Assembly: GCA_030550615.1 (NCBI GenBank)
Contig: JAUQPA010000008.1
Span: 1-32,398 of the forward strand
Source: Thermoproteota archaeon
GTDB lineage: Archaea; Thermoproteota; Thermoprotei_A; Sulfolobales; Desulfurococcaceae
Length of the DNA: 32,398 nucleotides
Reading direction: 5' to 3'
The position numbers and the translations under genes were made by a program. The notes beneath the pieces were generated by a model. It was not told the origin of the DNA. It made no database searches and saw only the letters and a list, made by a program, of their open reading frames with translations. Positions within the stretch are counted from its first letter, which is position 1. Every line of letters begins with the position of its first letter. Shown in pieces: positions 28,672 through 30,575 of the stretch.

Positions 28672-29355
28672 TTACCTGAGAAGAGCTATTGATCTCAGTA
28701 CATCGGCAACTTCTTCGCATTTATCTGCGGCGTTTTCAACGGTATCAGTTATTTCTTTTGCAAGCATGCAGTTAGATGTCTTAGCTGAATTGCAGTAAAG
28801 TAATACTTCTTGTAGCGCATCAACGTGGAGATCATCCACTTTTTCTTCATATAACTCGATCTTATTAGCTAACTCCAGTACTTTACTCCTATGTCCAGCC
28901 AACAGCTCTCTACTAGCCTCTAATATGATTTTAGCTGCTTCGTAGACGTAATTAGCCATTTCAATTAGCTTATCTATGAGGGTTGATGGTAACTCGTTTT
29001 CTTTTATGAAGCTTATTCTTCTACACCAAGCTTTCGCGTATGAAGCTATATCATCACTTGTAATTGCTAACCTAACTACTTCTTCTCTATCAATAGGATG
29101 AAAAACTCCTTCAGCTAATTCCGCAAGTATTTTTCTCTTCAACTCATCTGCTTCTCTTTCCTCATCGAAGACCCTTCTCCACTCCTCGCTGAACTTTTCC
29201 CAGTTGCCTTCTTTATAAGCTTTAATAGCTATTAAAGCATGGTATACAATACTGACGATCTTAGAGGCGTGTTCAATGTATAACTCAAGGGCTTTTTTCT
29301 CTCTTGCCCTAGAAATCCAGCTCCACGTTGACACATCAGGCACCTGTAAACACAT
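28672..29355 (-). CDS. DUF47/PhoU-like phosphate transport accessory protein
   Basis: 227 residues, all-helical, with acidic metal-binding-like clusters (EEREADELKRKI and KVDDLHVDAL) and the PhoU-type ENAADKCEEVADVL near the end. DUF47 proteins are encoded with PiT transporters and are thought to regulate them. Its start region overlaps the last 20 bases of the pit coding frame and it precedes the epimerase by 13 bases. ATG at 29355 is listed; GTG codons 5 and 8, close to GGTG, are alternatives. Confidence 0.88.
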   Translation of the reverse strand: MCLQVPDVSTWSWISRAREKKALELYIEHASKIVSIVYHALIAIKAYKEGNWEKFSEEWRRVFDEEREADELKRKILAELAEGVFHPIDREEVVRLAITSDDIASYAKAWCRRISFIKENELPSTLIDKLIEMANYVYEAAKIILEASRELLAGHRSKVLELANKIELYEEKVDDLHVDALQEVLLYCNSAKTSNCMLAKEITDTVENAADKCEEVADVLRSIALLR

Positions 29356-29647
29356 TTATTAAACCATAATAAAAGCACATGGATAGAAGAATATTCGTAG
29401 GGAGCGTTAGAACCCACGATAACAGTATTGTTAATAACAGTTTTAAATTTAATCCTTTTTTAAAACTCCTATATTTTGCAATACCTACACCTGTTATTGC
29501 GCCAACAGATATGTAAGTTGTTGAAACAGGTAATCCATAACCAAATAGCATGTAAGGCACTGTGGTGAACATCCACACTGATGTGGCTGTTACTAGCGAT
29601 GAAGAAAGCGACCCCAAGGGATCCAACCTTGTGATCTTGAACCCCAT
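29336..29647 (-). CDS. pit: PiT phosphate transporter, C-terminal part after a frameshift
   Basis: 103 residues from ATG 29647. It includes LDPLGSLSSSLVTATSVW and LPVSTTYISVGAITGVGIA, which are the second PiT repeat, plus the last membrane helices. On its own it is not a complete transporter. It continues the N-terminal part (29656-30348) in the -1 frame; the open frame reaches back through VVET to the shift site. No convincing ribosome site precedes the ATG. If the parts are fused, the protein is about 337 residues, normal for archaeal PiT. Confidence 0.8.
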   Translation of the reverse strand: MGFKITRLDPLGSLSSSLVTATSVWMFTTVPYMLFGYGLPVSTTYISVGAITGVGIAKYRSFKKGLNLKLLLTILLSWVLTLPTNILLSMCFYYGLINVFTGA

Positions 29648-29655
29648 AGTTTCAA

Positions 29656-30348
29656 CTACTTTTTCCCCATGATCGAACCTCCTAGGGCAATGAATAATGT
29701 TCCGTAAAGAGCTAGAAGAATACTACCCCTAACGTTAAATAGAAATGGTAGAGACCCAGCTAACGCTAAGTATACTCCTGTAGCGTTTCCAACATCATTA
29801 GCGCCAAACGAATAACCATTCCAGAAAGCAATTGCCAATGCTAGAACTTTCGTTGTTTCTTCATTGAGCCTGGTTTTCTCCAACACGATATAGGCTAAAG
29901 CTGCAGTAAACATTGCAAGCACTGGTGAAATCATCCAACTAGTAATGATGGTTTTCACAACGTTGATATTTACCCCCTCTAATGTACCGGAGGTAAATGC
30001 TATTGCTAAACCAGAGCCTAGAACAGCGCTGGTAACGCTTTGAGAAGTGGAAACAGGTAATCCAAGCTTCGTGGCAACGAGAACCCAGGTTAAAGCAGCA
30101 AGACTAGCCGACACTGCTCCATATAGGTCCAAGTTCTTAACAACTCCTTTACCTAGAGTCTTCATAACCATGTATCCTTGTAGAAGAGAACCTAAAGTTA
30201 CACTTACAGTAAATATCAATACAGCAACTCTGTAGCTTGTTACTCTACCTCTCACCAAGGTTGCTATGACGTTTGCCATGTCGTTTGCTCCAATTGCAAA
30301 AGCATACATAGCTGCAAGTGCTAATCCTAGAAAAATCAACAGTTCCAT
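29656..30348 (-). CDS. pit: PiT-family phosphate transporter, N-terminal part, ending at an early stop
   Basis: 230 residues of an inorganic phosphate symporter. Both GAND signatures are present: FAIGANDMANVIA near residue 18 and SFGANDVGNATG near residue 190, and LPVSTSQSVTSAVLGSG closes the first repeat. The frame ends at TAG (29656-29658) after MGKK, within the second repeat, just where homologues continue into VVET and LDP. The start is taken at ATG 30348, preceded by AAGGGC; a TTG at 30366 would add six residues. It is the first gene of pit - DUF47 - epimerase. Confidence 0.85.
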   Translation of the reverse strand: MELLIFLGLALAAMYAFAIGANDMANVIATLVRGRVTSYRVAVLIFTVSVTLGSLLQGYMVMKTLGKGVVKNLDLYGAVSASLAALTWVLVATKLGLPVSTSQSVTSAVLGSGLAIAFTSGTLEGVNINVVKTIITSWMISPVLAMFTAALAYIVLEKTRLNEETTKVLALAIAFWNGYSFGANDVGNATGVYLALAGSLPFLFNVRGSILLALYGTLFIALGGSIMGKK

Positions 30349-30375: not shown

Positions 30376-30416
30376 ACCTTTTATATAGTTACTATATGAA
30401 CTATATATGACTATAT
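30376..30416 (-). promoter_or_regulatory. pit operon promoter with repeated ACTATAT operator-like motif
   Basis: A TATA box (CTATATAAAAGG on the minus strand, 30377-30388) predicts a start near 30354. Immediately upstream, on the plus strand, ACTATAT occurs at 30391, 30400 and 30410, that is at about one helical turn each. TATATAG (30382-30388) and CTATAT (30392-30397) form a palindrome across the TATA box. This arrangement suggests a regulator that could compete with TBP; phosphate control is inferred from the operon only. Confidence 0.45.
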
Positions 30417-30489
30417 ATTGATCTCTGTGTGAATATAGCAGATATGGTTATTATATTAAAAATGTTAATAAAGAAAAACAAAGAAAACA

Positions 30490-30545
30490 TGTATTCAGCT
30501 TTCCTGGCCATCGTCATCTATCAGTCCAGCGCACATCATCACCAA
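30490..30545 (-). ncRNA. Box C/D guide sRNA (candidate 1)
   Basis: Minus-strand order: box C GTGATGA (30542-30536, perfect consensus), 11-nt guide, box D' CTGA (30524-30521), spacer TAG, box C' ATGACGA (30517-30511, six of seven), 12-nt guide, box D CTGA (30498-30495). Spacings match archaeal dual-guide sRNAs that direct 2'-O-methylation through L7Ae, Nop5 and fibrillarin. The predicted targets are UCCAGCGCACA (D') and CUUUCCUGGCCA (D), most likely in rRNA. It is more GC-rich than its surroundings, has a TATA-like box at the right distance and is followed by T-rich sequence at 30460-30488. Confidence 0.8.
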
Positions 30546-30565
30546 TCACTAAGATATCAATGACG

Positions 30566-30575
30566 GCTTATAATT
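30566..30575 (-). promoter_or_regulatory. TATA-like box of box C/D sRNA 1
   Basis: Minus-strand AATTATAAGC is centred near 30570, giving an expected start near 30544, two bases before box C. The position agrees with archaeal sRNA genes that have their own promoters. Confidence 0.55.

Follow-up and report, generated by a model that had tools for sequence, protein, structure and literature searches.

A predicted double-guide box C/D sRNA gene directed at 23S rRNA domain IV, upstream of a phosphate transporter gene in an uncultured Desulfurococcaceae archaeon

Does the intergenic DNA that precedes a phosphate transporter gene in this heat-loving archaeon encode a small RNA of its own and, if so, which RNA would that molecule act upon? 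The stretch in question lies near the end of the window (the whole 32,398-nucleotide piece of DNA that was analysed), between an ORF without Pfam match, which ends upstream, and the gene of a PiT-type phosphate transporter (PF01384), which has the same orientation and starts 146 nt further downstream. An earlier note had read it as an archaeal box C/D guide sRNA gene, a reading supported by box order, spacing, a promoter-like element, conservation and paired rRNA complementarity. We conclude that this stretch of about 55 bases is very probably an archaeal box C/D sRNA gene transcribed on its own, whose product would be a double guide for two 23S sites.

The core of the element, 48 nt from box C to box D (30495–30542, minus strand), reads GTGATGA TGTGCGCTGGA CTGA TAG ATGACGA TGGCCAGGAAAG CTGA from 30542 to 30495, i.e. 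GTGATGA-11-CTGA-3-ATGACGA-12-CTGA, exactly the boxes and spacings that the earlier note had reported. The order is that of a box C/D sRNA, all on the minus strand: box C (RUGAUGA; GTGATGA, 30536–30542), box D' (CUGA; CTGA, 30521–30524), a RUGAUGA-like box C' (ATGACGA, 30511–30517), which is one base off the consensus, and box D (CUGA; CTGA, 30495–30498). Between them lie two guides of a usual length (about 9–13 nt), the D' guide TGTGCGCTGGA (11 nt, 30525–30535) and the D guide TGGCCAGGAAAG (12 nt, 30499–30510), with a short D'–C' spacer of 3 nt. The pattern GTGATGA-N9..13-CTGA-NNN-ATGANGA-N9..13-CTGA has a single match in the window and none in 100 dinucleotide shuffles. The TATA-like element and the T-rich stretch mentioned previously are both in place: TTATAA occupies 30573–30568 (minus strand) and begins 31 nt before box C, a position that would place the transcription start a few nucleotides before this box, and a T-rich sequence past box D (30451–30487, minus strand) is a putative termination region. 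The stretch as a whole has no stable fold (z −0.13), which is expected since the C/D sRNA is considered here outside its protein complex.

A DNA search of 61 genomes (the organism's own and related ones) showed that three further species of the genus have orthologs of this element. In the four-species alignment, box C, box D and all columns of the D-guide core GGCCAGGAA are invariant and the flanks diverge; box D' is CTGA in three species and CTAA in one. The boxes and the guide are thus kept in relatives; a lack of box conservation was one of the joint conditions under which the earlier note would have given up its reading. A TATA-like hexamer precedes box C in all four species, at 31, 31, 35 and 40 nt (TTTAAA or TTTTAA at −31, −35 and −40 in the other three), which supports the presence of an own promoter. 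The description of the gene as 'unlinked' needs a qualifier, however: the PiT gene lies directly downstream, in the same direction, in all four species, at a distance of 77–146 nt. G005 and G006, both good genomes from the same genus, have PiT but no sRNA upstream of it.

We located the organism's own 16S and 23S genes and searched them for sites complementary to the two guides. The D' guide has its best site at 23S nt 2138–2148 (UCCGGCGCGCA), with 11 contiguous pairs, two of them G–U, and a Watson–Crick pair at +5. The D guide pairs with nt 2172–2183 (CUGUCCUGGCCU) through eight contiguous pairs, a mismatch at position 3 and two more pairs, again with a Watson–Crick pair at +5. The +5 rule gives Gm2142 for the D' guide and Cm2176 for the D guide as predicted modifications (E. 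coli positions ~1960 and ~1994, numbers obtained by alignment and approximate to a base or so), 34 nt apart and in helices that we take to be 71 and 61 of 23S. Helices 61 and 68–71 of domain IV are known hotspots of predicted methylation (PMC4644070). Scored by a simple pairing measure, the best two 23S sites within 100 nt of each other reached 50, a value equalled by one of 1000 shuffled guide pairs and by none of 1000 random window pairs. Neither UCCAGCGCACA nor CUUUCCUGGCCA, the exact target strings proposed earlier, is present in the 16S or 23S of the organism, where near-complementary sites exist; the bases predicted to be modified, G in one case and C in the other, agree with the sites found. 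In the relatives of the genus the D' pairing is weaker: it comprises at most about seven pairs and is interrupted in one species (G002).

Other RNAs were rejected as targets. The best paired score in 16S was 41, against 50 for 23S, and nothing convincing was found among 30 tRNA loci, nine more and the SRP RNA: the best D-guide match among the tRNA loci is antisense to a tRNA gene, and a D' match over 11 positions in the SRP RNA comprises only five Watson–Crick pairs. Two observations concern the rRNA genes themselves. The 16S gene (L001, G000:C15:44878-46685) spans 1808 nt, compared to a model of 1478 positions, which suggests an insertion or intron. In addition, the 23S sequences of G005, G019 and G007 (L068, L070 and L072) are sharply unlike the others directly before AGUUCCGGCGCGCAUG, as if an intron ended a few nucleotides upstream of the D' target site.

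The assignment of the D guide calls for more caution. According to Dennis et al. 2015 (PMC4644070), nine contiguous pairs are required, a rule that is relaxed for double guides; the D duplex alone, with its eight contiguous pairs and a mismatch, falls under the strict rule, so that the assignment, taken alone and judged from base-pairing potential, is acceptable but not strong. Moreover, the D guide has a second 23S site at nt 2025–2036 (GAAUCCUGGCCA; C2029, E. coli ~1830), where it forms nine contiguous Watson–Crick pairs with a score equal to that of the nt 2172 site. The sRNA could hence be a box C/D guide whose D guide mainly serves C2029, or both sites. The core of the nt 2025–2036 site is unchanged in all 10 LSU sequences checked, and the guides listed by Dennis et al. 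2015 (PMC4644070) include some with a distant target beside a linked one. On the other hand, guide positions 1–3 are unpaired there, C2029 is 113 nt away from the D' site, and those relatives whose guide has a C at position 3 form 11–12 pairs with the nt 2172 site. We regard this assignment as unlikely, though a serious competitor.

The C2176 site is indeed better argued from the relatives, because of the C at guide position 3. A relaxed C'-guide-D pattern matched 17 of 214 genomes, compared to three for a reversed control, and a stricter version, run on 398 genomes of the phylum, found matches in 12, all inside the order (0 of 327 outside; control 0). C/D-type sRNAs carrying the D-guide module beyond the genus amount to about 15 further genomes from five families of the order, counted by eye and by script with boxes C and C' in place; the pattern matches L093, L096, L097, L098, L126, L127 and L130, which lack a recognisable box C/D layout, were not counted. 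Most of these modules are GGCCAGGACAG before CTGA and, owing to the C at position 3, form 11–12 contiguous Watson–Crick pairs with 23S CUGUCCUGGCCU, a pairing computed with the 23S of those relatives that have one, the carriers' own 23S genes being mostly not found. The D' guides beside the shared module differ between these genomes; several are CACCGGCUC, complementary to 23S GAGCCGGUG at nt 2203, about 30 nt from the D site. As read from these sequences, a conserved D module is combined with varying D' partners, as in C/D sRNAs described by Dennis et al. (PMC4644070). For three genomes with a changed 23S site (G012, G042 and G046), in which guide and target might co-vary, the pattern search returned no matching guide.

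The constant proximity of PiT raises another reading, namely that the k-turn motif belongs to the leader of the PiT messenger and regulates PiT via L7Ae instead of guiding methylation. Archaeal L7Ae has been proposed to bind mRNAs, and in four species the motif keeps its place 77–146 nt before PiT, which would fit such a role. However, a TATA-like element of PiT itself, CTATATAAAA, lies downstream of the sRNA; the repeats that precede PiT are retained in G006, where the sRNA is absent; the related D-guide modules of other families sit in different surroundings; and the guides are conserved, not the boxes alone. We consider a leader function very improbable. As to chance C/D-like boxes in AT-rich intergenic DNA, the boxes are admittedly short, but the absence of matches in the 100 shuffles, the four-species conservation and the maintenance of the D guide beyond these species leave this explanation virtually no credit, the conservation having already refuted it.

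The PiT neighbourhood shows features of its own. The PiT frame is split into two ORFs (236 and 103 aa) through a stop or frame change (29336–30348, minus strand; L006); it is likewise split in G003 and forms a single frame of about 350 aa in G002 and G004. PiT is followed by a PhoU-like protein (PF01865; both within 28672–30348, minus strand), and the pair is likely a phosphate uptake operon. A direct repeat of about 11 bp occurs three times, as AATATATAGTC, ATATATAGTTC and ATATAGTAACT, directly before the PiT TATA-like element (30387–30419, minus strand; L004 and L137), and similar repeats precede PiT in G002 and G006; they are possibly an operator for a phosphate regulator.

Is the box C/D sRNA, then, of a known kind? 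The genome encodes fibrillarin (E 8.5e-105), and a strict pattern recognizes five C/D genes in it, this one and hence at least four others; this sRNA would therefore be one of a set. The four other C-D'-C'-D candidates, each with a correctly spaced CTGA box D, are at G000:C15:22029, C29:4541, C47:23116 and C48:33521 (L108, L109, L111 and L112), the C29 candidate lying about 3 kb from the fibrillarin gene. At the gathering score, Rfam gives no match at the sRNA, the window yielding only an SRP RNA and a tRNA-Arg. In a permissive scan, archaeal C/D sRNA models made up nine of the 10 best weak matches in the stretch, and all 10 in a narrower scan. The best model, sR21 (RF01137), scored 28.7 bits, where the gathering score is 45: in the D-guide half, AGGCCUGGAUAG-CUGA is similar to UGGCCAGGAAAG-CUGA, but the D' half has no match and one core base differs (U versus A), so that the sRNA is not a member of this family. 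It shares with the archaeal double-guide box C/D sRNAs of Sulfolobus, Ignicoccus, Pyrobaculum and Pyrococcus the box sequences, their order, the guide lengths and the short D'–C' spacer, as well as an own TATA-like element and two targets within 100 nt of 23S, in a hotspot region (PMC4644070). It differs from them in that its guide pair is absent from Rfam at the gathering score and in that its duplexes contain G–U pairs and one mismatch. Its sequence features are those of a genuine gene missing from the annotation, and they show no departure from a very well-known kind.

In the mechanism that we propose, L7Ae, Nop5 and fibrillarin would assemble on the C/D and C'/D' motifs, and the two guides would pair with 23S domain IV at sites 34 nt apart. 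Fibrillarin would then methylate, at the ribose 2'-O, the rRNA nucleotide that pairs with the fifth guide base before each D box, presumably G2142 and C2176, and the double contact may also aid the folding of that part of 23S. A bolder proposal, which we find decidedly doubtful, is that one D guide serves two 23S sites sharing UCCUGGCC (nt 2028–2035 and 2175–2182). Together with the D' contact, the sRNA would bridge three places of domain IV, and its role would be that of a folding chaperone and a methylation guide in equal measure; the A at guide position 3 would have loosened the strong duplex in this lineage.

With the double-guide reading, an uncultured archaeal lineage gains an RNA gene that its annotation lacks, together with two predicted, testable ribose methylations of its 23S rRNA. 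Its relatives provide a small case study in which a conserved D-guide module is combined with varied D' guides, all apparently aimed at one rRNA neighbourhood.
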